Shown one piece after another: positions 4,549 through 46,659 of a stretch of DNA of 64,000 bases; the stretch's first letter is position 1; each line of letters starts with the position of its first letter. This DNA is from a virus: positions 1 to 64,000 of the IMG/VR virus record IMGVR_UViG_3300014050_000017, one strand, 5' to 3'. Both the position numbers and the translations under genes were made by a program. Below the pieces are notes generated by a model that was not told where the DNA came from, searched no databases, and saw nothing but the letters and a program-made list of their open reading frames with translations.

Positions 4549-4663
4549 GACTGTATTGTGAGGCTACTGCCTGGGTTTTAAACCCTAAACTCTCATAGGC
4601 ATCTATAGCATCATCCATTGAGTATGGGTGCTCTCTATAGCACTGACCACACTGCAAACACAT
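4493..4663 (-). CDS. Small protein with CLQCGQC motif, 56 aa
   Basis: MCLQCGQCYREHPYSMDDAI, then a polar helix. The ATG overlaps the stop of the upstream gene (TAATG). It overlaps the next gene by 56 nt, more than usual here, so the C-terminus is less certain. Confidence 0.5.
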   Translation of the reverse strand: MCLQCGQCYREHPYSMDDAIDAYESLGFKTQAVASQYSRELLRLSRREPGLSRSHG

Positions 4664-4899
4664 TAACGCTTTTTAGCTGTTTTCTTTACAGCCTTCTTAG
4701 CAGTCTTCTTTACCGCCTTCTTGGCAGCCTTCTTGACTGGCTTCTTAGCAGTTTTCTTAGATGCCTTCTTAGGCTTTAGGATTTCGTCTAGTTCTTCTTC
4801 CCAGACCTGTGGGCCAGTCTTGAGGAACTTATCATCACGAAGAGCCTTGCCAACAATGGCGACAATAACAGCGAATACAACAACAAATAAGATTTCCAT
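4663..4899 (-). CDS. Membrane-anchored histone H1-like Lys/Ala-repeat protein
   Basis: 78 aa. Residues 2-18 form one transmembrane segment (ILFVVVFAVIVAIVG). After a linker of about 25 residues, the tail is a run of KKTAKK/KKAVKK repeats like bacterial histone H1-like proteins that bind DNA. First gene of the leftward block. The ATG sits 6 nt after a TATAGT hexamer, suggesting a leaderless mRNA. It may tether phage or host DNA to the membrane; this is inference. Confidence 0.65.
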   Translation of the reverse strand: MEILFVVVFAVIVAIVGKALRDDKFLKTGPQVWEEELDEILKPKKASKKTAKKPVKKAAKKAVKKTAKKAVKKTAKKR

Positions 4900-4905
4900 A
4901 CCCAA

Positions 4906-4911
4906 ACTATA
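4906..4911 (-). promoter_or_regulatory. Leaderless promoter -10 box (TATAGT)
   Basis: TATAGT on the minus strand ends 6 nt before the ATG at 4899, the usual distance from -10 to the start of transcription, so the ATG would be the first nucleotides of the mRNA. No good -35 is visible at 17-18 nt. It would drive the whole leftward 4.9-0 kb block. It stands back-to-back with the rightward promoter at 5,044. Confidence 0.5.
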
Positions 4912-4999
4912 GCAGGCTACTGCCTCCCCAATCTATGTGTAGGTACTCATGTTACCTGCCACCCCCGCGCTCGGGCGTGTCGTCTAACCCCTACCCCCC

Positions 5000-5073
5000 T
5001 GTGGATAAGTAGATGAACAAAAGATGAACAATAATAGCCCTAGTTGATAGGTGTCGGGGCTATCCATTAGGCT
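5000..5073 (+). promoter_or_regulatory. Control module 1: DnaA box, two TGAAC repeats, promoter
   Basis: DnaA-box sequence TGTGGATAA at 5000-5008, then TGAAC repeats 11 bp apart, then 13 nt to a -35 TTGATA (5044-5049), an 18-nt spacer and -10 TAGGCT (5068-5073). Drives the genes at 5100 and 5385. First of eight such modules. Confidence 0.7.
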
Positions 5074-5099
5074 AGGGCTACCAACGAAAGGGGAACATT

Positions 5100-5384
5100 A
5101 TGGACATGACCATTAGCAAGTCGCTAGTTCATGGATTTATCCGTAATCTCAATGGCAAGTTCTTTACCATTGAGTTCGTCAAGCGCACTACGGGGGAATA
5201 CCGCGTTATGCGTGCCACTACCAACTATGACTCAAAGTTAGCGGGTGGCGACCTAGCCTACGACGCTAACGCCAAGCAACTTATCCCAGTATGGGACATG
5301 GATAAGAAAGCGTTTCGTAGTATCCCAACCGACGCGGTCAAGGTTATCCGCGCCCTCGGTAATACTTACAAGGTGGTTGAATAA
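5100..5384 (+). CDS. SH3-like beta-barrel phage protein (DUF2693-like)
   Basis: 94 aa. The blocks GKFFTIEFVKRTTGEYRVMR, KLAGGDLAYDANAKQLIPVW and KAFRSIPTDAVKVI follow the SH3-fold proteins annotated DUF2693 or WYL-like in many phages (a V-F-x-K-x-DG-x-R-x-M strand, then a D-x-x-x-K-x-L-x-V-W-D strand). Likely a small protein or nucleic-acid binding module. RBS AAAGGGG upstream. First gene after module 1. Confidence 0.65.
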   Translation: MDMTISKSLVHGFIRNLNGKFFTIEFVKRTTGEYRVMRATTNYDSKLAGGDLAYDANAKQLIPVWDMDKKAFRSIPTDAVKVIRALGNTYKVVE

Positions 5385-5738
5385 ATGAAGCACGCAATTC
5401 ACATGGAGGGGGGCAGGTCGCTAAGCGACCTGCTCGACACCGAGACATTCCGTAACGCCTCAGTAACGGACACGCTCAACGGCAACGGGGTTATGGTAGC
5501 CCTACACTCTGCCCGTCATGTAGTCGATACCATGACCCTAAGCGGTTATGACTCAGACACTATCGCCTACGCATTCGAGAAGCCATGGAAGTATCCAGAA
5601 TTCTGGCTCCCAGCCCTCTACATTCATGGAGTTCTCTACGGCATCGGCGGACGCCGACTCTACACCGCCTTTATCAGTGATGTGGAATACGACGATAACC
5701 ACACATTCACTATCAAGGAACTCGAACCAACGGAATAA
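5385..5738 (+). CDS. Hypothetical protein, 117 aa
   Basis: Starts directly after the previous stop (TAA ATG). Mixed alpha/beta composition with a Trp/Tyr/Pro-rich middle (KPWKYPEFWLPALYIHGVLY) that could be a short hydrophobic element. Ends just before a strong hairpin terminator. No family recognised. Confidence 0.65.
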   Translation: MKHAIHMEGGRSLSDLLDTETFRNASVTDTLNGNGVMVALHSARHVVDTMTLSGYDSDTIAYAFEKPWKYPEFWLPALYIHGVLYGIGGRRLYTAFISDVEYDDNHTFTIKELEPTE

Positions 5739-5742
5739 GGTT

Positions 5743-5770
5743 AGAGGCGCGGACTTCCCCCCGCGCCTCT
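5743..5770 (+). terminator. Hairpin terminator after first rightward unit
   Basis: Perfect 10-bp inverted repeat AGAGGCGCGG / CCGCGCCTCT with an 8-nt loop. No clear T tract, so termination may be incomplete. 5771-5867 holds a small CCCCGTAGGGG hairpin and one copy of the CAACACAAAC element (5805-5814), and no gene. Confidence 0.6.
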
Positions 5771-5867
5771 CTCGATTCCCCGTAGGGGTATGGGGAGGGT
5801 GGGTCAACACAAACATTAGAACGGCATAGGGACTGGCAAAGGAACCCCAGGAATAATAAAGAGAGCC

Positions 5868-5964
5868 TGTGGATAACTCGGTAAACAAGCCTGTGGATAA
5901 CTAAGTAAACAATAAGTGAACAAATTCAAACTGGCTTGCGTCTCATAAGGTTATCGAATAAGTT
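5868..5964 (+). promoter_or_regulatory. Control module 2 (two DnaA boxes)
   Basis: TGTGGATAA at 5868-5876 and 5892-5900 (24 bp apart), with TAAAC/TGAAC repeats 11 bp apart. After 13 nt comes -35 TTGCGT (5936-5941), 17 nt, then -10 TAAGTT (5959-5964). Transcription would begin near 5971, where a leader shared with module 3 starts. Confidence 0.65.
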
Positions 5965-6004
5965 TATCTCAGTGGGCAAGGGGCTCACAGAAAGTAGGTT
6001 AAAA

Positions 6005-6241
6005 GTGGATACATCCACTCAAGCGACACCAGTCGCTACCGATTACCTAAATAAGGTAATCACTCTCCGCAACGCCAAGTATTTTGGCACTGTTCAATCA
6101 GGTCGCTGTGAAGCGGTCACAATCACTGAACAAGGTGTTCAGTCAGTGAACATCGAGGGAATCGGCGACATCCGCGTCGCTGATGACTCTGATTACCAGC
6201 AGGGCTCACACTACTACTGGAACATCGAGTCAGTTCTCTGA
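6005..6241 (+). CDS. Hypothetical protein, 78 aa (GTG start)
   Basis: Reads MDTSTQATPVATDYLNKVIT from a GTG at 6005, inside the transcript predicted from module 2. The TTG at 5936 in the same frame is the promoter -35 and cannot be the start. C-terminal half is beta-rich. No family recognised. Confidence 0.6.
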   Translation: MDTSTQATPVATDYLNKVITLRNAKYFGTVQSGRCEAVTITEQGVQSVNIEGIGDIRVADDSDYQQGSHYYWNIESVL

Positions 6242-6251
6242 TAGTTTCTAT

Positions 6252-6277
6252 CGCCCCTAGTCGCAAGGCTAGGGGCG
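6252..6277 (+). terminator. Hairpin terminator
   Basis: Inverted repeat CGCCCCTAG / CTAGGGGCG with the loop TCGCAAGG, the same loop as in the next terminator. No T tract. It lies between two genes of one unit and may only attenuate. Confidence 0.55.
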
Positions 6278-6317
6278 GTGGTGATTATCATAGGATAATC
6301 AGAAAGGGGGGTGAGCC

Positions 6318-6461
6318 ATGGACCCACGTCTATGGATGGCTCAGGTCTATCGCCAGTTGCGCGGTAACGAGCTGCTTAAGCAGTTTGAAACCGATATCAA
6401 CAATTGCCAAGGACCTGACGACGCTATTGCAATCTGCAAGCGTTACCTAGCATTGGCATAG
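6318..6461 (+). CDS. Small hypothetical protein, 47 aa
   Basis: Reads MDPRLWMAQVYRQLRGNELL; helical. A strong GGGGGG-type RBS lies just upstream, and a terminator follows 6 nt after the stop. No family recognised. Confidence 0.6.
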   Translation: MDPRLWMAQVYRQLRGNELLKQFETDINNCQGPDDAIAICKRYLALA

Positions 6462-6467
6462 CAAGGA

Positions 6468-6500
6468 GCCCCGCGTCGCAAGGCGCGGGGCGCTTTGTTT
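6468..6500 (+). terminator. Rho-independent terminator
   Basis: GCCCCGCG / CGCGGGGC stem with loop TCGCAAGG, followed by GCTTTGTTT. The trailing sequence runs into a GTTTGTGTTGG element at 6497-6507 that begins the next control region. Confidence 0.7.
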
Positions 6501-6507
6501 GTGTTGG
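6497..6507 (+). repeat. Single GTTTGTGTTGG arm
   Basis: One copy of the 11-nt arm that flanks inverted repeats at 7222, 8525 and 11328. It is followed by CCCGCCCACCCC, as in the copies at 7222 and 11328. No matching downstream arm is found before module 3. The nearest inverse copy is upstream at 5805-5814. Confidence 0.6.
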
Positions 6508-6551
6508 CCCGCCCACCCCGTTTATTTAATTGGGAGTTTTGGGAGGAGAGC

Positions 6552-6624
6552 TGTGGATAACTTAGTGAACACCAGGTGAACAATCAAAAACCTAGTAGAC
6601 ATGCGGAAAGTGTTCAAATATAGT
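6552..6624 (+). promoter_or_regulatory. Control module 3
   Basis: TGTGGATAA at 6552-6560, TGAAC repeats 11 bp apart, 13 nt, -35 TAGACA (6596-6601), 17 nt, -10 TATAGT (6619-6624). Predicted transcript start about 6631 opens with the same leader as module 2. Confidence 0.7.
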
Positions 6625-6665
6625 TTAGGTAGTGGGCAAGGGGCTCACAGAATAGGGGTTAAATT

Positions 6666-6869
6666 GTGCAAGAAGTTATATTCTACAACGGTTTCAACTT
6701 ACTCGTTGACATCGTCCTATGTTCGATTGTTGGATTCTTATCCTACAGGGCAGGAAAGATATCAGGTTACTTCAAGGGTTACAGTGACGGTGAAAACGAT
6801 TACAAGGACCGAGCAGAACAAGAAGCCGAGTATTACTACAACAGCATGCGAGAGGATTCATGGTCATGA
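6666..6869 (+). CDS. Single-pass membrane protein, 67 aa (GTG start)
   Basis: Reads MQEVIFYNGFNLLVDIVLCS. Residues about 10-28 form one transmembrane segment (NLLVDIVLCSIVGFLSYRAG). The C-terminal part is acidic and Tyr-rich (YFKGYSDGENDYKDRAEQEA). The GTG follows AGGGG by 8 nt. An ORF in another frame from 6601 overlaps the promoter and is a shadow. Function unknown. Confidence 0.6.
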   Translation: MQEVIFYNGFNLLVDIVLCSIVGFLSYRAGKISGYFKGYSDGENDYKDRAEQEAEYYYNSMREDSWS

Positions 6870-7165
6870 AGTTACAGTGTAACCAAAAGGAAGCCATGGA
6901 CCGCATCGCGGCCCGTCAACCATTTGAGGCGTCAGCCTTGAGCGGTAAATATTGCAACTATACGCCTGGCGCAGGGCGCCTAGGCTCAGAGTATGACAGG
7001 CTTATTAGTGACTTTAAAACAGGCGCTTACGTAGTCTTCTCATATTCAACACCAATCGCCTGGTATGGGGCCAATGGTTGGTACGTAGTACAGGAGAAGT
7101 TCTCCCCTACTACATCCAAGCAACAGAATTACGTGCGACGAGCGGTTACCGTCATAGCCGCTTAG
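6860..7165 (+). CDS. Hypothetical protein, 101 aa
   Basis: Overlaps the previous gene by 10 nt at most; ATG codons at 6860 and 6866 are both possible, the second forming an ATGA overlap. Contains GAYVVFSYSTPIAWYGANGW, a beta-rich Trp/Tyr block. No family recognised. Confidence 0.6.
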   Translation: MVMKLQCNQKEAMDRIAARQPFEASALSGKYCNYTPGAGRLGSEYDRLISDFKTGAYVVFSYSTPIAWYGANGWYVVQEKFSPTTSKQQNYVRRAVTVIAA

Positions 7166-7177
7166 AAACCCCCTGGC

Positions 7178-7207
7178 AAAAGGCCCTCGAGAAATCGGGG
7201 GCCTTTT
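7178..7207 (+). terminator. Rho-independent terminator
   Basis: AAAAGGCCC / GGGCCTTTT stem with an 11-12 nt loop and a T-rich end (CCTTTTGTT). Closes the unit of module 3. Confidence 0.75.
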
Positions 7208-7221
7208 GTTATGCAGAGAAT

Positions 7222-7297
7222 GTTTGTGTTGACCACCCACCATCCCCACGCTAACACCATACATTGGCATTAAGCGAAGCTTAATGCCAACACAAAC
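7222..7297 (+). repeat. GTTTGTGTTG inverted-repeat element with inner hairpin
   Basis: Outer arms GTTTGTGTTG (7222-7231) and CAACACAAAC (7288-7297). Inside lies a perfect 12-bp hairpin, TTGGCATTAAGC / GCTTAATGCCAA with a GAA loop, whose 3' arm runs into the outer arm. Sits between a terminator and control module 4. Confidence 0.7.
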
Positions 7298-7307
7298 ACC
7301 TGCGGCC

Positions 7308-7405
7308 TGTGGATAACTTAGTGAACGGGGCTGTGGATAACTCCGTTAACGGAAGATGAACAATAATAATCCTATTTGAAAGATTGAGATTGCTCATAGT
7401 AGGCT
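7308..7405 (+). promoter_or_regulatory. Control module 4 (two DnaA boxes)
   Basis: TGTGGATAA at 7308-7316 and 7332-7340 (24 bp apart), a TTAAC/TGAAC repeat pair 11 bp apart, 13 nt, -35 TTGAAA (7376-7381), 18 nt, -10 TAGGCT (7400-7405). The predicted transcript starts with a GCGGGA-AAG-TCCCGT stem-loop. Confidence 0.7.
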
Positions 7406-7452
7406 AAGGACATGCGGGAAAGTCCCGTATACATAGTGAGAGGGGGCGCCAC

Positions 7453-8463
7453 ATGGCGCACGCACTAGAGGTTGAGAATGGCGAGGTAGCCTTTGCGCTA
7501 CGCGGTGCACCCGCGTGGCATGGCTTGGCTAATCGTACATTCTCCGCCGACGAGCATGTCTCAACCGCAGACATGCTATCCGCTGCTAAATTAGCAGACT
7601 GGAATGTCCGACTAGAGGACGTTCAATACCCAGCGGGTTACCGCTCAAAGTCCGACCTATTTATGGTCGTACGCACCAACCCATTCGACCAAGGCACCGA
7701 CGTGCTATCGGTCGTTGGTAAGCGCTACCGCGTATTCCAAAACGAGGAATTGTTCACATTCGGGGATAACATCCTCGACGGTGGCGCCTCATGGGAATCC
7801 GCAGGTTCAATCAAGGACGGCAAGGTCGTATTCGGCTCTCTCGTCGTACCTCGTGAGTTCATTCTCGACCCACAAGGTGCCAATGATAAGACTACTACTT
7901 ATCTGCTCGTTCACACATCACACGACGGTAGCGCCAGCGTTCAGGCGTCTATCACACCAGTGCGCGTCGTTTGCCAAAATACGCTACACGTTGCACTCAA
8001 TAACACTAAGTCCTCATTCAAGTTGCGCCACACTCTCAAGGTAGAGGGTCGCGTTGCAGAGGCTCGCCTCGCTCTTGGGCTCACATTCAATTACATGGAT
8101 GAGTTTGAGTCCATCGCTAAGTCTCTCTTTGAGACCTCAATGTCCAACGCTCAATGGGATAAGTTGGTCAATGCAATCTACCCAATGCCCGACGCTAATC
8201 AAGTCGCGCCACAAGTCATGACTAAGTGGCAAGCCAAGCGCGACCTACTGGATGATATCTATCACCAGTCACCAACCCAGACCAACATCAAGGGTAACTA
8301 CTGGGGCGCCCTTAACGCTCTCACCGAGCGTATCGACTACTTCCGCTCAGGTCGCACCGCCAATGGCGAGGCACTTATCGGAGCAGCCAGCGGGTTCGAC
8401 CCAGTGGTCAATGCGGAAAAGTCTCGCATCATGCGAGCAGTCCGCGAGTTGGCTAACGCTTAA
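7453..8463 (+). CDS. DUF932 / TIGR03299 phage-plasmid protein
   Basis: 336 aa. The opening (APAWHGLANRTF), the central SVVGKRYRVFQNEELFTFGD and ITPVRVVCQNTLHVALNN are hallmarks of the DUF932 (TIGR03299) family, widespread in phages and plasmids and often expressed early. Biochemical role not established. RBS GAGAGGGGG upstream. It is alone in its unit, with its own promoter module and terminator, which suggests strong independent expression. Confidence 0.85.
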   Translation: MAHALEVENGEVAFALRGAPAWHGLANRTFSADEHVSTADMLSAAKLADWNVRLEDVQYPAGYRSKSDLFMVVRTNPFDQGTDVLSVVGKRYRVFQNEELFTFGDNILDGGASWESAGSIKDGKVVFGSLVVPREFILDPQGANDKTTTYLLVHTSHDGSASVQASITPVRVVCQNTLHVALNNTKSSFKLRHTLKVEGRVAEARLALGLTFNYMDEFESIAKSLFETSMSNAQWDKLVNAIYPMPDANQVAPQVMTKWQAKRDLLDDIYHQSPTQTNIKGNYWGALNALTERIDYFRSGRTANGEALIGAASGFDPVVNAEKSRIMRAVRELANA

Positions 8464-8474
8464 GTAAGCCTACT

Positions 8475-8499
8475 AGCCCCCCGCACCCAGCGGGGGGCT
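8475..8499 (+). terminator. Hairpin terminator
   Basis: AGCCCCCCGC / GCGGGGGGCT, 10 bp with a 5-nt loop, 9 nt after the DUF932 stop. Followed by TT only. Confidence 0.7.
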
Positions 8500-8524
8500 T
8501 TGGCATGCCCGCATTTAGCTAAAA

Positions 8525-8611
8525 GTTTGTGTTGGGGCTTGCTGAACAGTAGCTATATATGTATAGGTAGTGTTCGAAAACAGCACCTATACAGCAAGCC
8601 CCAACACAAAC
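8525..8611 (+). repeat. 20-bp GTTTGTGTTG inverted repeat with nested hairpin
   Basis: Perfect 20-bp arms (8525-8544 and 8592-8611) starting GTTTGTGTTGGGGCTTGCTG. Inside, GTATAGGT / ACCTATAC forms a nested stem, leaving a one-sided bulge containing AGTAGCTAT. The element at 9735 repeats this architecture. Confidence 0.85.
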
Positions 8612-8628
8612 AAGCCTATCAGCAGGGC

Positions 8629-8703
8629 TGTGGATAACTAAATGAACAGGAGATGAACAATCACTACGCTGGCTTGCGTTATGTCGGGAGTCTAAATTAG
8701 ACT
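8629..8703 (+). promoter_or_regulatory. Control module 5
   Basis: TGTGGATAA at 8629-8637, TGAAC repeats 11 bp apart, 14 nt, -35 TTGCGT (8674-8679), 18 nt, -10 TAGACT (8698-8703). The transcript would begin at a GTGAG-AAATA-CTCAC stem-loop (8712-8726). Confidence 0.7.
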
Positions 8704-8749
8704 CGGCGTAGTGAGAAATACTCACACAAGTAGAGATAGGAGAAATCCA

Positions 8750-8782
8750 ATGCTACCTAGAGACTCTAGGGAACGACTCTAA
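8750..8782 (+). CDS. Ten-residue leader peptide
   Basis: MLPRDSRERL, with a good RBS (GATAGGAG) and a stop that overlaps the next ATG (TAATG). It has three Arg codons among ten. May couple or attenuate translation of the zinc-finger gene. Very short, so only the context supports it. Confidence 0.4.
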   Translation: MLPRDSRERL

Positions 8783-9216
8783 TGACGAAGGGGGGTGATA
8801 CTATCTTTACACGCAACAACGCTCAACTCATTGAGCAACAGCAAGTGCCAAATCCAATGGCGAAGGGGCACTTCTTTACCAACATGACCGAACTTCTTTG
8901 GTCTGATGGGACTATTACATTCGGTTGCCTCATCTGTGGCGACCAAATGGACTCACGCCCACAACTCTCAATCCACATTGGCAAGGCTCACAACCCTGCC
9001 AAACCTAAAAAGCCTACTAAGAAGGCTACCCGCAAATACACTAAGCGCAATACAGAGTATTGGGCTAATGGTGGAAACATCAACCAAAACCGACCAACAA
9101 CCGACCAAACGCTAACCGATAAGGAACTAGCGTTTTGGAAGGCGCAAGCGCACAAGGCAGAAGCGGAAAACCGCAAACTGCGAGCGCAACTCAAAGCCCT
9201 ACTAAACATAAAGTAG
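8782..9216 (+). CDS. C2H2-type zinc-finger protein with C-terminal coiled coil
   Basis: 144 aa. FGCLICGDQMDSRPQLSIHI then GKAH forms a Cys2-His2 finger near residues 49-69. A basic stretch (KPKKPTKKATRKYTKR) follows, then a charged coiled coil (AHKAEAENRKLRAQLKALL) for dimerisation. Likely DNA-binding regulator, placed early in the rightward arm. Confidence 0.65.
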   Translation: MTKGGDTIFTRNNAQLIEQQQVPNPMAKGHFFTNMTELLWSDGTITFGCLICGDQMDSRPQLSIHIGKAHNPAKPKKPTKKATRKYTKRNTEYWANGGNINQNRPTTDQTLTDKELAFWKAQAHKAEAENRKLRAQLKALLNIK

Positions 9217-9296
9217 GCAGGGTTTCTCACCCCCCGTGAGAATAGTCCTGAGCATGACTCCAAACTGCTCATCTAACAAAGCCTAAGGGGGCTAAA

Positions 9297-9692
9297 GTGG
9301 CAACAACCATAAAGGTAGATAGGCTAGTCCTATTACAAGCACTAACGGCTAAACTAGCCGAGCAAGACCAACTTCGTGCCGACTACAAGAAGGCAGAGGA
9401 AAAATACAAGAAGGCAACAGAAACCTTTGCTAATAAGATTATGACATTGGTAAAAGGTGGCAAGTTAGAAGTCGCAAACACTAACTATCGTTCTTGGCGT
9501 GATGAACTAGAAATCACTATCAAGATAGATAAAGGCGTTATGCCAACCGAGCCTGAACAACCTAAGCGTCCTGACGCATGGCTACACGATAGCGATTACG
9601 AGGAACTCCGTAAGACTATCAAGTTGCTAGGTATGACGGCAGACCCAAGCGTGCCTACAAGCGTGTATAAGTCTGTATCACAATGGCTCTAA
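9297..9692 (+). CDS. Coiled-coil hypothetical protein, 131 aa (GTG start)
   Basis: Residues 10-55 form a charged helix (QLRADYKKAEEKYKKATETF) likely to be a coiled coil; the rest is mixed. The start GTG follows GGGGG by 8 nt. 9217-9296 is a short spacer without a gene. No family recognised. Confidence 0.65.
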   Translation: MATTIKVDRLVLLQALTAKLAEQDQLRADYKKAEEKYKKATETFANKIMTLVKGGKLEVANTNYRSWRDELEITIKIDKGVMPTEPEQPKRPDAWLHDSDYEELRKTIKLLGMTADPSVPTSVYKSVSQWL

Positions 9693-9704
9693 AATAAGAC
9701 TACG

Positions 9705-9734
9705 AAGCCCCCGCAGAGATGCGGGGGCTTTCTT
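9705..9734 (+). terminator. Rho-independent terminator
   Basis: AAGCCCCCGC / GCGGGGGCTT, 10 bp, loop AGAGAT, then TCTTG. Directly abuts the inverted repeat at 9735. Confidence 0.8.
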
Positions 9735-9821
9735 GTTTGTGCTGGGCTTGCTGTAATAAGTAGCTATCTCGGTATAGGTACGGATTTCATCACTGCCTAT
9801 ACCAGCAAGCCCAGCACAAAC
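9735..9821 (+). repeat. 19-bp GTTTGTGCTG inverted repeat with nested hairpin
   Basis: Perfect 19-bp arms (9735-9753 and 9803-9821), GTTTGTGCTGGGCTTGCTG. The nested GGTATAGG / CCTATACC stem and a bulge containing AGTAGCTAT copy the layout of 8525-8611, with a compensated T-to-C change in the outer stem. Confidence 0.85.
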
Positions 9822-9843
9822 ATAATAGGGCTGAGAGATGGCC

Positions 9844-9952
9844 TGTGGATAACTAGGTGAACAACGTATGAACAACCCTGTGGATAACTAAGTGAACGAG
9901 AGATGAACAATTACAAATGTAATGGAGAAAAGAGAAAGAGTTATAGTAGATT
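9844..9952 (+). promoter_or_regulatory. Control module 6 (two DnaA boxes)
   Basis: TGTGGATAA at 9844-9852 and 9879-9887, each followed by two TGAAC repeats 11 bp apart: the only fully duplicated module. After 13 nt lies a weak -35 TGGAGA (9923-9928) and a -10 TAGATT (9947-9952), or TATAGT at 9943. Confidence 0.6.
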
Positions 9953-9978
9953 AGGCACACCTACCGAAGGGGGGGACT

Positions 9979-10506
9979 ATGAACAGTATTGAACGCAAGG
10001 AGCGTTTTACTGAACTAATGGCAACAATAGAGTTGTTGCCAAGTATAGAGGACGAAAACTACGAGCCTAAGTTTCCTAAGGGAACACTAGGCTTATCAGA
10101 CGGACGACTAAAGACCGCTATCATGGTTCAAGCCATGAAAAATGATGAGGAGTTTCAAGGCAACCTTATCAACGCACTAGCAAATACAGGTCTAGAAGCG
10201 TGCCAACAAAAGCACATGAACGGCGAAATGCCTAACGAGGACGACATAGCCTCGGTATGTATGGCTATCCATGTAGCGTGGGCGGCAGGTGCGTTATCGC
10301 CTATGCTAATAATCCTAGGTATCGCAAGTAAGATGTTCGCAGTATGCGACATTGAAATACCTGACGACCTCACACTTATCTTTCGTCCTAATCAGGGCAT
10401 GAAGGATAAAGCGCCACAGTTAGACCCGATAGCCCTATTAGAGTTAGATAAGGAAGGGCTATTTGACCTACTAAAGAAGGGTTATGAAAATGACTCTGAC
10501 GAGTGA
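9979..10506 (+). CDS. Hypothetical protein, 175 aa
   Basis: RBS AAGGGGGGG. Largely helical with a hydrophobic middle (AWAAGALSPMLIILGIASKM) and an acidic C-terminus. No family recognised. Its last 23 nt overlap the next gene. Confidence 0.65.
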   Translation: MNSIERKERFTELMATIELLPSIEDENYEPKFPKGTLGLSDGRLKTAIMVQAMKNDEEFQGNLINALANTGLEACQQKHMNGEMPNEDDIASVCMAIHVAWAAGALSPMLIILGIASKMFAVCDIEIPDDLTLIFRPNQGMKDKAPQLDPIALLELDKEGLFDLLKKGYENDSDE

Positions 10507-10735
10507 TAAAAAGACTCCCGACGGGCGCCGTATGGTAGCCCTACCATTCAAAATTGAGTTCGTTGCCTATGTAGAGGAGCATAAGTTCCTAGAACACATG
10601 ACCTTAGTAGGTGGCGAGTTAGATAGGCTTATCAACATGCACGAGGCATGTGCAGTAGATGTGCTAGACATAGACAAGCAGTTGGTTGATAAACAACGAG
10701 GCTGGAAGGAAGTCCTCGTAGAAAGGGTGCAATAA
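10484..10735 (+). CDS. Hypothetical protein, 83 aa
   Basis: Starts MKMTLTSDKKTPDGRRMVAL, overlapping the previous gene, and ends one nt before the next ATG. Mixed alpha/beta; no family recognised. Confidence 0.6.
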   Translation: MKMTLTSDKKTPDGRRMVALPFKIEFVAYVEEHKFLEHMTLVGGELDRLINMHEACAVDVLDIDKQLVDKQRGWKEVLVERVQ

Positions 10736-10736
10736 A

Positions 10737-11222
10737 ATGGGTATGGATGTGTATGGCAAAGCGCCGAAGTCCGAACGCGGGGAGTATTTCCGCAATAATA
10801 TATGGTGGTGGCGACCACTATGGGATTATTGCGAGGAAGTAGCCCCTGACCTCTGCTCCAATGTAGATGGACACTCCAATAGCGGAGATGGTCTTGACGA
10901 CAAGGGCGCAGAACAACTTAGCCAAATCCTCAAGATAAGGCTATCTGATGGGTCTGTAGATAAGTACGCTCAAGAACGGGAAGTCTATCTATCAGCCCTA
11001 CCAAAGGAAGTATGCGATTTCTGTGACGGAGTGGGTATCGTACAGGTGAAGGAAGGCTGGCCTGACTATGTAGAAGGGCAAGTAACCTTTAGAGACCCAT
11101 GTAACGCATGCAACGGCACTAAGGAGAAAGAACCATGGCAACGCCATTACCCATTCTCCAAGGAAAACGTAGAAGAGTTCGCAGAGTTCCTAGCAGATAG
11201 CGGTGGATTTGAAATCTGTTAG
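10737..11222 (+). CDS. Conserved phage protein with DnaJ-like zinc motifs
   Basis: 161 aa. Opens MGMDVYGKAPKSERGEYFRN then NIWWWRPLWDYC, a signature of a phage/bacterial family of unknown function. Two CxxCxG-type motifs (CDFCDGVG near residue 94 and CNACNGTK near 122) resemble the zinc centre of DnaJ. Ends before a terminator. Confidence 0.7.
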   Translation: MGMDVYGKAPKSERGEYFRNNIWWWRPLWDYCEEVAPDLCSNVDGHSNSGDGLDDKGAEQLSQILKIRLSDGSVDKYAQEREVYLSALPKEVCDFCDGVGIVQVKEGWPDYVEGQVTFRDPCNACNGTKEKEPWQRHYPFSKENVEEFAEFLADSGGFEIC

Positions 11223-11247
11223 GACGGAACCCCTTCCTATCCATCGC

Positions 11248-11285
11248 ATAGGGCTATCAGTTTCGGCTGGTAGCCCTATTTTATT
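11248..11285 (+). terminator. Rho-independent terminator
   Basis: ATAGGGCTA / TAGCCCTAT stem closed further by AG/CT, followed by TTTTATT. Confidence 0.75.
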
Positions 11286-11327
11286 GCCGCTAAGTTACTG
11301 GCCAGTAGCTCTCCAGGCCGCGGAGAT

Positions 11328-11470
11328 GTTTGTGTTGGCCCACCCTCTCGTATTTTGGTATTAAATTATACCAAAATACTCGTACCCACCCTGAATGACG
11401 CCTTTTTTAATATAAAAAAGGCGGTCATTGCTAATTGGGCTATGGCTTTAGCCATTAGCCCAACACAAAC
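11328..11470 (+). repeat. Cloverleaf-like inverted-repeat element
   Basis: Outer arms GTTTGTGTTGG (11328-11338) and CCAACACAAAC (11460-11470). Inside are three hairpins in a row: GTATTTTGGTAT (11350-11361) with 11368-11379; a GCCTTTTTT / AAAAAAGGC stem extended by AATGAC/GTCATT (11394-11429); and TTGGGCTA (11435-11442) with 11456-11463. The 142-nt element holds no gene. Confidence 0.8.
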
Positions 11471-11472
11471 CC

Positions 11473-11557
11473 TGTGGATAACTTGGTTAACAGGAGATGA
11501 ACATTGGCTGAGAGAGAGAGAATTGGCTTGACGGCAGAGAGAGCGAGAGAGTAGGCT
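11473..11557 (+). promoter_or_regulatory. Control module 7
   Basis: TGTGGATAA at 11473-11481, a TTAAC/TGAAC pair 11 bp apart, then 24 nt (13 plus 11) to -35 TTGACG (11528-11533), 18 nt, -10 TAGGCT (11552-11557). The extra 11 nt is one helical turn. Confidence 0.65.
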
Positions 11558-11563
11558 CGGAGA

Positions 11564-11669
11564 TTTTGCCCTCTCGGCTACTGCCACCCCGTCTAATAGG
11601 CTTGTTAAGCGCAAGGCCAGATTTAATAGCCTTATCGCCAAGTCCTATCAGCATGAGAGAGAAGGGGGT
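11564..11669 (+). other. Transcribed spacer between modules 7 and 8
   Basis: About 105 nt follow promoter 7 before module 8 begins. No ORF with an RBS and no terminator hairpin is evident. It is either a long leader for the ATPase gene or a small RNA. Confidence 0.3.
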
Positions 11670-11742
11670 TGTGGATAACTATATGAACGGCAGATGAACA
11701 AATGGGTGGAGAGTGTAGTTAAATGCGGAAATAGGTTAGAGT
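11670..11742 (+). promoter_or_regulatory. Control module 8
   Basis: TGTGGATAA at 11670-11678, TGAAC repeats 11 bp apart, 13 nt, -35 TGTAGT (11714-11719), 17 nt, -10 TAGAGT (11737-11742). The transcript would start just before a GTGGC-AACACC-GCCAC stem-loop. This rules out the ATG at 11694, which lies inside the TGAAC repeat. Confidence 0.65.
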
Positions 11743-11783
11743 GGGGGAGTGGCAACACCGCCACCTATATTGAAGGGGTCGTT

Positions 11784-13301
11784 ATGACTAATCACCTTGC
11801 GTTGCTCGTAGTGAGTGACGCCGTATTAGAGGGGGAACAGGCGCAAGCCCAAACCCTACTCATAGGAACGGATACCGAAGTCTTAGGGTATCACCGCGTA
11901 TCTAATGGCGCTAAGGGGAGAGGACAGGCGTGGCAACCCGTATCCGTCCTTCCTACTAGCCCTATCTCTCACGAACCCGTTGCCGTCGTACTTAGCGACC
12001 GCGACCTCGTAATGCTTCAACTCGGTCAGATTACTAATATCGGTATTAAGGCGCTATATGCGTTAGAGAGCGCCACCGCACCTAGTAACCCTATCGCTCA
12101 CGACCTTGCCGTAGAGGGGTTACGCGACCGCCTCACACAGGGCGATTCCACGCTATCTGAACATGTAACTGATAAGCGTCGTTCACAGGGTCTATCTATT
12201 AGCCCTATCGTAAGTACAACTTCGGCGACCGCGACCGCGCCCGTCGTGCCTATCAAGCCTATCGAGCCTACAAGTAATAAGGCTATGAGTGACGCCCTAG
12301 TAAATGCTATGGTGAGCGTGCCTGATAAGGCTTTCGCAAAGTCCTATATCAACCGCAAGGTCGTAGGCGGTCTTACCGACTTCGAGATTATGGACTTCGC
12401 TATGGCGTCTAAGAAAAATGTCCTTATCGAAGGTCACGCAGGGTCAGGTAAGACGGCTATGGTGCAAGCCTATGCGTCAGCGCGTGGACTTCGGTATTTT
12501 AACGTCGCATGCCATATTGGATTAGAGGCTTCACACCTCGTCGGTCGTTGGATTCCTACCCCCGACGGACACTTCCGTTGGCAGGACGGCGCAGTTACAG
12601 AGATAGTCCGTAATGGTGGCGTCCTACTATTCAACGAAATTAACTTCGCACCCGAGCGCTTTCTCACCTTTATCTTTAGCCTATTAGATTATCGTCGTGA
12701 GATTCAGTTAATGGAAAATGGTGGCGAAGTCGTCAAGGCTCACCCCGACCTACTTATCGTAGGCGACATGAACCCCGACTATCGTGGCACTCGCCCACTC
12801 AACCAAGCACTCGCCGACCGCTTCCCCGAGCGTCTAGTATTCCCATACGATAATGCTATCGAACAGAAGTTACTCGGTAGCAAAGCCCTATTAGATATGG
12901 CGAACCAACTCCGTACCGAGTTTGATAAGGGTACTATCAGCACCCCTATCTCCACCCGTAATCTAGTAGCCTTCGCAGATAACGCTAAGGCGCTAGGCAT
13001 GGACTTCGCCACCTATTGCTATATCAACTCTTTCGAGGGTGATGAGGAACGTAGTGCAGTAAGACTATTACTCACCACTCACCACGACAATATCGCGTCC
13101 GACTTCGGACTTGCTACTAAGGCTATTAAAGATGTATTCGGTAACTCAAATGTAGAAACCGCTATCTTAAATACAGAAGTAGGCGCTATCGTGGACGGCA
13201 TGGAAGTATCCGTAGCAGAAGCGACCCCCGAGATGAACGATATCCACGAAGCGGAAGCGTTTAACTCTCTCGTCGATATCCTTAACGGCGGTAACAACTA
13301 A
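11784..13301 (+). CDS. MoxR/CobS-like AAA+ ATPase
   Basis: 505 aa from the ATG at 11784 (MTNHLALLVV), preceded by GAAGGGG. The first 190 residues are a variable adaptor region. The ATPase core has Walker A EGHAGSGKTAM (about residue 215), Walker B-like NGGVLLFNEINFA and a GDMNPDYRGTRPLNQALADR sensor segment with an arginine-finger region, as in MoxR and cobaltochelatase CobS. The CobT-like VWA partner overlaps its stop (TAATG). Such pairs act as chaperone-like metal inserters; CobS with CobT inserts cobalt into the B12 ring. Cyanophages carry cobS, and this phage has a B12-dependent reductase, so that role is plausible but unproven. Confidence 0.75.
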   Translation: MTNHLALLVVSDAVLEGEQAQAQTLLIGTDTEVLGYHRVSNGAKGRGQAWQPVSVLPTSPISHEPVAVVLSDRDLVMLQLGQITNIGIKALYALESATAPSNPIAHDLAVEGLRDRLTQGDSTLSEHVTDKRRSQGLSISPIVSTTSATATAPVVPIKPIEPTSNKAMSDALVNAMVSVPDKAFAKSYINRKVVGGLTDFEIMDFAMASKKNVLIEGHAGSGKTAMVQAYASARGLRYFNVACHIGLEASHLVGRWIPTPDGHFRWQDGAVTEIVRNGGVLLFNEINFAPERFLTFIFSLLDYRREIQLMENGGEVVKAHPDLLIVGDMNPDYRGTRPLNQALADRFPERLVFPYDNAIEQKLLGSKALLDMANQLRTEFDKGTISTPISTRNLVAFADNAKALGMDFATYCYINSFEGDEERSAVRLLLTTHHDNIASDFGLATKAIKDVFGNSNVETAILNTEVGAIVDGMEVSVAEATPEMNDIHEAEAFNSLVDILNGGNN

Positions 13302-15163
13302 TGCCACGCGACAACCACAACGACCTACTAGATAGGCTTATCGAGGAAACTCGCATGGGCGCTTATAGCGGTGACGAAACCTTCGACGCCGAAGCCCTTG
13401 CAGAGGAATTAGAGGAACATATCAACAAGTTACAGGCGGTAGGTGCGGTCTATGGTCGCACCGACCGCATACTTACCGCCGAACCCGTAGAGGTACGCGT
13501 CGAGGATAATCCCGAGATGAATACCCAAGCCTACAACGACGGCAAGACTATCGTGTTCAACGCTAGGCTTATCGAGGACGTAGATGATAAGACTATTATC
13601 TCGCTCAACGGATTCAACTACCACGAAGTCGCTCACGTCCTATATTCCCCTAGAGGCGGTAGCGAGTTCGGTAAGGCTATCAAGCGCGAAGGGTTGAAGC
13701 ATGCGTACAACTGCCTAGAGGACGCCCGTATCGAGCGCCTACTAATCGCTAAGTATCCTGCCGTCGCACCCTTCCTAGAGGCTACCTGCCTAGAGTATCT
13801 ATTGAAGGGTCAGAGCAACGAGTTCGCTAGTTACTTCCCACTAATGACGGGTCGCAAGTATTTAGATATAGAATTGCGACAGGAAATTGCAGATAGATTT
13901 ATTAAGCACTTCGGCAAGGACTTAGCCATGTCGATATCAGTGCTAGTGCATGAGTACCGCACACTCGTATTCCCACGCGACTACGATAGAGGCTTAGAGA
14001 TAATAAGACTATTTGCAGATATCGTTGGTCGTGAGGATATCAACGAAGTTAATGGCGTACCTATGATTCCTAGTGGCGGTCATGGCGACCGCGACGTTCA
14101 GGATAAGGGTCGCATGAAAGGTATCCGCGAACAGGAAGCCCAACAAGATAAGGCTAACAAGGACGAGGCTAACGGCGCAGGACAGGGCGACGAGCGCATG
14201 GACGACCCTGCCGATTCTAATACAGAAATAGATACCGATAGCCGTAGTTTCGGTAGCGACGGCAAGGACGACGCAGACGACAACGTGCTTCGCAAAGATA
14301 TCAAAGAGCGACTAGATAACCTTAGCAAGGACGAGGAAGTAATGCGTGGCGCTAAGGAAGTCCGTAAGGCTATCAACGACAATAACCAACGTCGTAGTGC
14401 TATTAAACAGGGCGCTTACTCTCTCCAACAAGTAACGTCAAAGGTATCTGCGACCGCCAAGTCTTTTGGTGTAGCCCTAGAGCGCGTCCGTATAGATAAC
14501 GACCCTGCGTGGGAGTTAGAGCAACCTATGGGTCGCTTAAATATAGGACGTGCTATGCGTGCCGATATCAACGACATAGATAAAGTGTTCGATAGGTGGA
14601 GTGAGGGTAACTCCAATAATGATATCGACGCGATAATCCTAGTAGATACTTCGGGTAGCATGTCGTGGCAGATTCAGCGCACTATGGAAAGCGCATGGAT
14701 TATCAAGCGCGGTATCGAACGTATCAACGGGCGCGTATCCGTTTATAAGTTTAACCACGATAGTAGGCTTATCTACTCCGCAACTGATAAGGCTATGCCA
14801 ACCGAGTATCGCTACGTCAATACTTCGGGCGGTACTAACCCTTACAAAGCCCTATTAGAAGCACGCCGTCACCTAACGTCTAGCCGTCGTGGAGTACGCA
14901 TGCTATTTATCGTGACCGACGGGCATTGGGATATGACCGACGAGAACGATAAGATTATCGCCGACCTTAATACGGACGGCGTAGAAACTGCGATAGTCTA
15001 TCTCGGTGATATCAAGCGCTACTCTGATAGTCGTGAGGAATACGAGCGTTACTGCGCCATGTATCGTCATGGTGCAAAGCACTTCCGCGATATCGTAGAA
15101 CCAACCGACATGGTGCTACTCGCTAAGGACATAGTTAAAGCCACTATGACCGCAAGGCACTAG
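13301..15163 (+). CDS. CobT-like VWA-domain protein
   Basis: 620 aa. The N-terminal third has HEVAHVLYSPRGG, a metalloprotease-like HExxH variant, and an E-DARIER motif (CLEDARIERLLI) typical of CobT-like proteins. A low-complexity acidic/Asn-rich linker spans about 260-330. The C-terminus is a von Willebrand A domain with MIDAS: ILVDTSGSMSWQI (about 448), a Thr in SGGTNPYKALL, and IVTDGHWD. Translationally coupled to the ATPase. Confidence 0.75.
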   Translation: MPRDNHNDLLDRLIEETRMGAYSGDETFDAEALAEELEEHINKLQAVGAVYGRTDRILTAEPVEVRVEDNPEMNTQAYNDGKTIVFNARLIEDVDDKTIISLNGFNYHEVAHVLYSPRGGSEFGKAIKREGLKHAYNCLEDARIERLLIAKYPAVAPFLEATCLEYLLKGQSNEFASYFPLMTGRKYLDIELRQEIADRFIKHFGKDLAMSISVLVHEYRTLVFPRDYDRGLEIIRLFADIVGREDINEVNGVPMIPSGGHGDRDVQDKGRMKGIREQEAQQDKANKDEANGAGQGDERMDDPADSNTEIDTDSRSFGSDGKDDADDNVLRKDIKERLDNLSKDEEVMRGAKEVRKAINDNNQRRSAIKQGAYSLQQVTSKVSATAKSFGVALERVRIDNDPAWELEQPMGRLNIGRAMRADINDIDKVFDRWSEGNSNNDIDAIILVDTSGSMSWQIQRTMESAWIIKRGIERINGRVSVYKFNHDSRLIYSATDKAMPTEYRYVNTSGGTNPYKALLEARRHLTSSRRGVRMLFIVTDGHWDMTDENDKIIADLNTDGVETAIVYLGDIKRYSDSREEYERYCAMYRHGAKHFRDIVEPTDMVLLAKDIVKATMTARH

Positions 15164-29273: not shown

Positions 29274-29555
29274 TTAACGTGCACTGACATCAAAGACGAT
29301 GGCTGATATCTGGCCGTCATGGCTCTCAATGCTGGTAAACCCTGGAATACAGATTAAATCCATACCTCTTGGGGCGGTATACCCACGGGCAATGGCAATG
29401 GCTTTTACAGCCTGGTTGATAGCTCCAGCCCCCACAGCGCGAATCTTGCAGGCGCGGGTCTCATAGATGCTATGAGCAATGGCTGATGCTACGGCTTGTG
29501 GGTTAGACCCAGCGCTTACACGCAGGACCTGGTCATCTTTCAGTTCTTCTGACAT
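29274..29555 (-). CDS. spoVS: SpoVS-family protein
   Basis: 93 aa. LRVSAGSNPQAVASAIAHSI, AVGAGAINQAVKAIAIARGY and IPGFTSIESHDGQISAIVFD match the stage V sporulation protein S family, an Alba-like fold. SpoVS affects sporulation in Bacillus and occurs in Deinococcus and Actinobacteria. As an Alba-like protein it may bind nucleic acid. RBS AGGAG. Unusual cargo for a phage; perhaps a developmental modulator. Confidence 0.85.
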   Translation of the reverse strand: MSEELKDDQVLRVSAGSNPQAVASAIAHSIYETRACKIRAVGAGAINQAVKAIAIARGYTAPRGMDLICIPGFTSIESHDGQISAIVFDVSAR

Positions 29556-45029: not shown

Positions 45030-45712
45030 TCTCGTAGGTCTCCTTTACTCGTAACCATCGGTAGATATGTAAACGCTTCCTTAGCAAAGCTTTCGGTTGC
45101 ATCGCCGTAAAGACTATTCCAATCTTCAAGCATCACGTTGGTGGTCACGATGGTTGGCAGGCCCTGGTTGTATCGCGTACGCAATACATGGTGGAGAACG
45201 TTTTTCTGCCATCCACTTAGGCTGGCGTGCTCCTTACCTACATCATCAATTACTAGAACCCTGATGTTATAGGGGTCGTGCGCTTCGCCTAGAATCCCAT
45301 AGTAGAGCACCTCCTCCCAGTCTGTCGGGCTATCCATCATGCGACCTTGCAGTGCTAGGACGTCATTAAATGTTATGAAATAACAAGGCCTGATTAATAC
45401 GGACTCTTCCGATACATCAAAGGCCTGTAGGGGTGAATTAAGCATGATAGTCTGGATAGTTGCTGCTGCAACTGTCGACTTTCCGCGACCAGGTAGCCCA
45501 GCCAACAAAAGACCTCGGCCACAATACCTGTTACCAGAGGCGCGAACTACTGAGCCTTCGTTAAAAATACTAAGCCAACCACTAATTTCAACGATGTCTT
45601 CAGGGTCTGAGTCATTGCAATCTTCAAGAGTCCAGCCAAGTTTAGATTTAGGTATGCCTGCAGCCTGTATCCATGTGCGACGTCGTACTTTTTGTTTTTC
45701 TAATACGTACAT
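45026..45712 (-). CDS. DnaC/IstB-like AAA+ helicase loader
   Basis: 228 aa. Walker A LLLAGLPGRGKSTVAAATI (about 70), Walker B VLVIDDVGKEHASL (about 150), and sensor TIVTTNVMLEDW, ending LRTRYNQG as in DnaC. Loads the DnaB-type helicase at the origin, together with the winged-helix protein upstream. Confidence 0.8.
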   Translation of the reverse strand: MYVLEKQKVRRRTWIQAAGIPKSKLGWTLEDCNDSDPEDIVEISGWLSIFNEGSVVRASGNRYCGRGLLLAGLPGRGKSTVAAATIQTIMLNSPLQAFDVSEESVLIRPCYFITFNDVLALQGRMMDSPTDWEEVLYYGILGEAHDPYNIRVLVIDDVGKEHASLSGWQKNVLHHVLRTRYNQGLPTIVTTNVMLEDWNSLYGDATESFAKEAFTYLPMVTSKGDLRE

Positions 45713-46659
45713 TACTTCCCACCGCTCCTTAAATATTCTTCACGTTCCGCACGTGCTTTGGCTCTTGCTGCGGATACTACATCTAAGTCCTCAGGTTTCA
45801 TAGCACGTCGTACTTCATCAATCTTAGTAGGCGCATAATTTAAGAAGGTCCAGAACAACTGTTCAGGGTTATATAACTTACGGTGTTCAAACTTGTAACT
45901 AGCAATAAACATGTCCAACAGACGCTTATCTAGCTCGCCGTTAGTGTCGTTGTCTACACGGAACTGATACATAGCTTTTACCAACCTAGGGCGTTGAGTC
46001 AGAGCAACCTGCTCTACCTGCCATAGGGTCTTGCACTGTTCCGCAAAATAATTAATGATGTCGGTAGGAGTCCAACGGTCTACAGTCTTCTTAGCCCTGG
46101 CAATCTGGCGCTTCTTAAAATGCTCCTGCGACTGCTCCTGGCGTTCGCGCTTCTTGCGCTCAGCCTCCTTCTTTAGTTCCTGCTCTAGGTCATCTGGGTC
46201 TATTGGCATTGAGCCTAAACTCATGGCTTCTCCTTCTGTTGTTTCTTCTTTCCGTGCGTGAAAATTCATTTTCACGCCTTGGTTAACTGAATTAGCATAT
46301 AAACCATACTGCTCTGTGCTATATGGAATATCTGCTATATAGGTATCAGCTATATTGCTATTCTGTGATATGGAGATGTAGGTTTCACCGTTCGGGAAAA
46401 CCTGCAACGGTGACCCAGTACTCCAGTCAAAAGCATAGGCCTTACCCTGGGTGGTCAGCTCTAGGGTATGCCAAAAGGTTCCCTTGGCGGTCTTACCGCT
46501 AGAACGGGCTACAAGGCCAATAGAGACCAGTTCAGTGATGGCTGACTCAGTCTCATACCTACCCCAGCCATTGGCCTCCATAAGGCCCTGTACGCCCCTT
46601 GGAGCCCCATATCTGGCTATGGTCAGGAATACACCTAGGGTCTTAGGGCTTAGGCTCAT
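45712..46659 (-). CDS. Winged-helix replication-initiation-like protein
   Basis: 315 aa. Residues 5-75 look like a winged helix (LGVFLTIARYGAPRGVQGLM then ETESAITELVSIGLVARSSG), followed by a polar linker, a long charged helix (about 155-195) and a helical C-terminal domain. Gene order (this, loader, helicase, primase) suggests an origin-binding initiator. Inference from context. Confidence 0.6.
   Translation of the reverse strand: MSLSPKTLGVFLTIARYGAPRGVQGLMEANGWGRYETESAITELVSIGLVARSSGKTAKGTFWHTLELTTQGKAYAFDWSTGSPLQVFPNGETYISISQNSNIADTYIADIPYSTEQYGLYANSVNQGVKMNFHARKEETTEGEAMSLGSMPIDPDDLEQELKKEAERKKRERQEQSQEHFKKRQIARAKKTVDRWTPTDIINYFAEQCKTLWQVEQVALTQRPRLVKAMYQFRVDNDTNGELDKRLLDMFIASYKFEHRKLYNPEQLFWTFLNYAPTKIDEVRRAMKPEDLDVVSAARAKARAEREEYLRSGGK

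Follow-up and report, generated by a model that had tools for sequence, protein, structure and literature searches.

Helically phased DnaA boxes suggest host DnaA as an upstream activator of predicted early promoters in a group of phages

Why does a phage carry eleven perfect copies of a bacterial replication-initiator site, all in one orientation and all between genes? The virus record in question (IMGVR_UViG_3300014050_000017) is 80,133 bp long, and the window analysed here is its first 64 kb. The window encodes a PolA-type polymerase, a DnaB-like helicase, a primase, an IstB/DnaC-like protein, a ribonucleotide reductase and a WhiB regulator. WhiB points to an actinobacterial host (PMC10202952), and the phage is probably one of freshwater actinobacteria. 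Genes from ~5.1 to 17.7 kb run rightward, and nearly all the remaining ones leftward. The phage also has a SpoVS-domain gene (29277-29555, minus strand; 86-99% identity among relatives), and a small protein encoded at 4663-4905 (minus strand) has a lysine/alanine-rich tail specified by 12-nt repeats.

The motif TGTGGATAA, which reads TTATCCACA on the opposite strand, occurs 11 times in the window between 5000 and 11678, always on the plus strand and always intergenic, exactly at the coordinates given by the original prediction. That prediction had put the chance expectation at less than one copy per 64 kb, and dinucleotide shuffles of the window bear it out (mean 0.64, maximum 3). A count over the whole 80,133 bp again gives 11 copies on one strand, with 0 on the opposite one; since the total is still 11, the 16 kb beyond the window hold none. 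The boxes group into eight modules, each with a rightward gene downstream, and no copy lies elsewhere. This is not the distribution of a phage immunity operator/stoperator array, in which most sites lie away from promoters and block elongation. The small rightward genes start at 5100, 5385, ~6006, 6666, 6860, 7453, 8782, 9297, 9979, 10484 and 10737. The features of the region are as follows.

5000-5031, plus strand: module 1, DnaA box (5000-5008) and two RTGAAC elements
5044-5073, plus strand: predicted module 1 promoter of weak consensus, -35 TTGATA (5044-5049), -10 TAGGCT (5068-5073; box +69)
5100-11222, plus strand: small genes, mostly unannotated, which the modules would drive in the reading proposed here
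5868-5923, plus strand: module 2, DnaA boxes at 5868 and 5892 (24 nt apart) and RTNAAC elements
5936-5964, plus strand: predicted module 2 promoter, -35 TTGCGT, -10 TAAGTT (box 5892 +68)
6552-6583, plus strand: module 3, DnaA box (6552) and two RTGAAC elements
6596-6624, plus strand: predicted module 3 promoter, -35 TAGACA, -10 TATAGT (box +68)
7308-7363, plus strand: module 4, DnaA boxes at 7308 and 7332 (24 nt apart)
7376-7405, plus strand: predicted module 4 promoter TTGAAA-18-TAGGCT (box 7332 +69), preceding the DUF932 gene
7453-8463, plus strand: DUF932 gene (PF06067), putatively early, with upstream DnaA boxes in 35 of 55 non-redundant relatives
8629-8660, plus strand: module 5, DnaA box (8629) and two RTGAAC elements; predicted -10 TAGACT at 8698 (box +70)
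9844-9910, plus strand: module 6, DnaA boxes at 9844 and 9879 (35 nt apart), two RTGAAC elements each; predicted -10 TAGATT at 9947 (+69)
11473-11504, plus strand: module 7, DnaA box (11473) and RTNAAC elements; predicted -10 TAGGCT at 11552 (box +80)
11670-11701, plus strand: module 8, DnaA box (11670) and two RTGAAC elements, directly 5' of the AAA ATPase gene; promoter only tentatively assigned
11784-13301, plus strand: AAA_5 ATPase gene (start 11784 or 11694), the query for finding relatives
13301-15163: VWA-domain gene, after the AAA_5 ATPase gene

The window modules share the consensus TGTGGATAAC-TNN-RTGAAC-NNNNN-RTGAACAA, and the double boxes, spaced by 24, 24 and 35 nt, are in register with the TGAAC elements. 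As a check not anchored on the box, RTNAAC-N5-RTGAACA pairs were searched genome-wide, and all nine pairs have an exact TGTGGATAA 13 nt upstream. TGAAC repeats had been described after every box. This mostly holds, except that a single TGAAC-like element separates each of the boxes at 5868 and 7308 from the box that follows, that GTAAAC or GTTAAC stands as the first element in several cases, and that the copy at 5000 has GGATAAG where GGATAAC had been given.

The sequence of the box itself bears on its binder. TTATCCACA is a high-affinity R-type DnaA box, for which the consensus is TTWTNCACA (PMC5835720), and all 11 window copies are perfect. Relatives were fetched from IMG/VR with the AAA ATPase downstream of module 8; their gene order is conserved, and boxes recur at the orthologous promoters of many of them. 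Of all 9-mers, TTATCCACA is shared by the largest number of DUF932 upstream regions, with 44 perfect copies in 34 of the 55 non-redundant ones; for 300 permuted 9-mers in the same regions the mean is 0.16 and the highest value 3. There are also 24 single-mismatch variants: 16 are TTTTCCACA, 4 differ at position 5 and none at positions 4 and 7-9. Twenty of them fall at positions where E. coli DnaA tolerates change, a rule that may not be the host's. Because the variants obey TTWTNCACA (PMC5835720), we read them as DnaA's own tolerance. Distant relatives (DUF932 identity 58-68%) have overt multi-box elements at the orthologous promoters, namely tandem boxes 14 nt apart in L112 and L119, including TGTGGACAA, and inverted boxes with a 2-bp gap in L111, L124 and L127, where the partner boxes are TTATACACA, TTATGCACA and TTGTCCACA. 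Judged from these patterns, the TGTGGATAA/TTATCCACA motif very probably binds DnaA. The phage genome gave 0 matches to DnaA domain IV (PF08299) in a search that was positive for control genomes, which makes the host's DnaA the candidate binder.

Beside the box, every phage has one uniform element, or dialect, at its orthologous promoters. The dialect of the window phage is the box with two RTGAAC; that of L021 and L085-L087 is the box with one RTGAAC, that of L013 the box with CTGWGAG, and that of L016-L020 and L088-L090 the box with AATCGTTATA and TGTAAYC. Up to 10 boxes each, nearly always in the same orientation, are found at the orthologous promoters of L013, L021, L085-L088 and L016-L020. 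Against 71 perfect boxes in 13 putative early regions, the plus strand has only about 9 intergenic boxes with a single mismatch. The 9-mer is thus nearly invariant while the neighbouring element changes between relatives, an invariance that is by construction in one alignment anchored on the 9-mer itself. Since other elements stand in their place in close relatives, the TGAAC repeats are not part of a universal motif; they are lineage-specific partner elements. The partner could consist of weak DnaA boxes in the RTGAAC dialects, or be a site for another protein. As weak boxes the TGAAC elements fit in their 11-12 bp register, in which strong boxes can take their place (at 24, 24 and 35 nt); NRTGAACAA reads TTGTTCAYN on the opposite strand, with two to three misfits as a DnaA box, and sister lineages have elements at this position that are not DnaA-like. 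Such an exchange between sister lineages speaks rather for a second regulator that can change. One candidate for it is a winged-helix protein (45712-46659, minus strand) encoded beside the IstB/DnaC-like helicase-loader gene, which has diverged far faster than its neighbours (identity 74 to 32%) and whose AlphaFold model, of low overall confidence, has a MarR/DnaD-like N-terminal fold. It was not retained as the partner-element binder, as its recognition helix does not track the dialect.

Further relatives have other repeats at these promoters: 11-bp CTGAGANATTN/RTGAACATTAN repeats in L091, CGTTATCWAAT in L023-L029, and TCCTGTGAGT...CGGCGTGTCG, with no repeated box and the gene order unchanged, in L011, L012, L014 and L015. 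On the ATPase tree the box label requires two changes, which we read as one gain and one loss, deep placement being unsure because the branches are long; the L014 clade appears to have replaced the DnaA box altogether. As this clade lost the box and 20 of the 55 relatives have none upstream of DUF932, DnaA is not essential to the gene set. Such turnover is what one would expect if a phage-encoded regulator bound TGTGGATAA and the match to the DnaA box were a coincidence within a fast-changing family of ~11-bp operator repeats. The same promoters do use CTGAGANATTN and RTGAACATTAN in L091, CGTTATCWAAT in L023 and TCCTGTGAGT with CGGGCGTGTCG in L014, some relatives' repeats resemble the box (CTGTGAATAAT), and the winged-helix protein evolves unusually fast. 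However, the 9-mer stays fixed while tandem and inverted box arrangements vary, the single-mismatch variants match the tolerance of DnaA, and the recognition helix of the winged-helix protein shows no co-variation with the motif dialect. We consider a phage regulator at the box unlikely, and DnaA the better candidate.

What bound DnaA would do is suggested by the distance from box to promoter. In the window group, where -10 sites were assigned by an unconstrained sigma-70 scan, the -10 lies at +68 to +70 from the box in six of the eight window modules and at +80 in module 7, about one helical turn longer. It is mostly at +48 to +50 and +59 to +61 in L013, L021 and L087, and mostly at +71/+72 in L017, L020 and L088, so that the distances of the group are quantised at ~49, 60, 70 and 80 bp. 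For 51 modules, the Rayleigh R at 10.5 bp is 0.571, against a maximum of 0.308 among 200 mononucleotide-shuffled sets. In an independent set, distant relatives whose promoters are close to consensus (TATAAT, TATACT), 47, 57-58, 79-81 or 90-91 bp separate the forward box from the -10, in steps of about one helical turn. In both sets of predicted promoters the box therefore lies upstream at activator-compatible, helically phased positions. Counts across these phages are not independent because the phages are related; the stronger argument is that different architectures land on the same phase. Sites kept on one face of the helix upstream of the -35 are the hallmark of an activator touching RNA polymerase, and the quantised distance would be the signature of such an activator. 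A strict scan recovered one of the eight window promoters, which are weak against the consensus. Individual -10 calls in the window are soft for this reason, and the weakness fits activator dependence.

The same geometry bears on whether DnaA might instead repress or shut off early promoters. DnaA does repress several promoters, its own included (PMC8203912), and from a site upstream of the -35 its binding could spread towards the -35. But the boxes stand in phase 47-91 bp upstream of the -10, off the core promoter in the sets examined, and the window promoters are weak, as expected of activator-dependent ones; repression is accordingly quite improbable. A datA-like sink, in which titration or promoted inactivation of DnaA stops host replication initiation, would need no promoter association, strand bias or 10.5-bp phasing, and many relatives have few boxes. 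Every box here is at a promoter in fixed phase, unlike a promoter-independent cluster. Eleven high-affinity boxes per genome, multiplied during infection, might still draw on the DnaA pool, given that box plasmids perturb initiation and that datA titrates DnaA in E. coli (PMC5835720). The titration included in the original prediction is thus a possible side effect that leaves the phasing unexplained, and we doubt that it is the main role of the boxes.

The diffuse origin also suggested there did not hold up. Dispersed replication origins, with host DnaA and a phage initiator on iterons, would account for DnaA boxes beside 11-12 bp direct repeats, as in iteron plasmid origins, in a phage that encodes a DnaB-type helicase, an IstB/DnaC-like protein and a winged-helix protein. 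Yet a GC-skew extremum at the array is absent in seven of seven genomes, both the number and the spacing of the boxes go with the promoters, and the L014/L011/L012/L015 clade has lost them though its genomes are otherwise similar. This makes origins very improbable.

Several other features were seen near the modules and in other phages. Long inverted repeats (6496-6507, 7221-7296, 8525-8611, 9734-9822 and 11327-11469) sit between one gene's terminator and the next DnaA module; their ends are invariant (TTTGTGTTGG...CCAACACAAA), their interiors variable yet complementary, and every dialect has repeats of a similar kind. Rfam gave only sub-threshold matches on 4800-12000, to these long hairpins. 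Just upstream of module 1, at 4972-4982, there is one copy of CGGGCGTGTCG, which takes the place of the DnaA box in the L014 clade. L014, otherwise without boxes, has a perfect inverted DnaA-box pair, TTATCCACAGCCTGTGGATAA, at 6616-6636 downstream of its DUF932 gene. The unrelated phages L036, L041, L042, L044-L047, L049-L051 and L054 have a compact DnaA-box cluster in both orientations, including TGTGGATAACTTTGTGAACAA, which adjoins a probable small terminase gene. In L057 (Actinomycetia phage DSL-LC01), a CTAAAGATGTTATAAT-like sequence, probably this phage's own promoter motif, occurs ~12 times in 24 kb. The cultured relatives Cantare, GMA6, DSL-LC01 and Angela show no DnaA-box arrays near the homologs, and the exact window-type module was not found in viral contigs. 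The tandem-box pattern alone was too common among the matches listed to inform as a search probe there. A scan of GTDB genome contigs for relatives gave just two archaeal MAG contigs with distant AAA homologs.

Taken together, host DnaA as an upstream activator of the phage's early operons is the best explanation, and one we hold to be likely though by no means certain. The transcription-factor role in the original prediction gains from the degeneracy pattern, the helical phasing to the -10 and the conservation upstream of orthologous, presumably early genes, all of them properties of sequence. Each module would activate an early promoter of sigma-70 type from upstream. The host's DnaA would occupy the perfect box, joined in many relatives by additional boxes in tandem or inverted arrangement, on the promoter's helical face 47 to ~91 bp upstream of the -10, and would help the host RNA polymerase to initiate transcription of the rightward early operons. 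The element next to the box, two RTGAAC here, may be the site of a second protein or of additional DnaA protomers sitting on weak boxes. This suggests that the phage would turn on its first genes by means of its host's replication initiator. More speculatively, the whole early programme of a widespread actinophage group might be wired to host DnaA, so that early expression reads DnaA level or nucleotide state (growth, cell-cycle status) and the genomes that enter the cell also pull DnaA away from the host origin. The partner element would be swapped between close relatives at every promoter together, as though in an arms race over a second regulator; this wider picture is possible but tentative. 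If true, DnaA would be a general early-transcription activator for a large aquatic phage group and infection would be linked to host replication control. The helical phasing would offer a clean DnaA-RNA polymerase activation system, and the promoters a set in which a host-protein site is fixed while the neighbouring regulator site is replaced at all of them together.

DnaA is well known both for activating and for repressing transcription, and the lambda origin is one of the cases (PMC8203912). At cellular DnaA promoters (E. coli dnaA and nrdAB; Caulobacter gcrA, ftsZ and mipZ; B. subtilis sda), DnaA boxes are likewise found at the promoter, a strong box beside weaker ones (PMC5835720, PMC8203912), whereas here the genes are a phage's, the architecture is uniform and repeated, and the partner element is lineage-specific. 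Cluster A mycobacteriophage stoperators and operators resemble the modules in being many one-orientation asymmetric sites per genome with a phage-specific consensus (PMC6550527). In contrast to these, every site here lies upstream of a promoter, and the core, which matches the site of a host protein, is constant, change being confined to the neighbouring element; the analysis turned up no repressor. datA and other DnaA titration loci share groups of high-affinity DnaA boxes, which here are spread over loci and phased to promoters. No description of a phage DnaA-box early regulon was found in the open-access literature searched, and helically phased early promoters with DnaA boxes, as a set spanning a phage family, appear to be new. 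The nearest known phage case of DnaA-stimulated transcription is the lambda origin: as cited in PMC8203912, Szalewska-Palasz et al. 1998 describe stimulation of lambda origin/pR transcription by DnaA, with RNA polymerase beta as the proposed contact. In lambda, host DnaA near a phage promoter promotes phage transcription, as is proposed here from sequence. However, the lambda case is a single region bound up with origin activation, whereas here eight promoters per genome have consensus boxes upstream, helically phased, across many phages.
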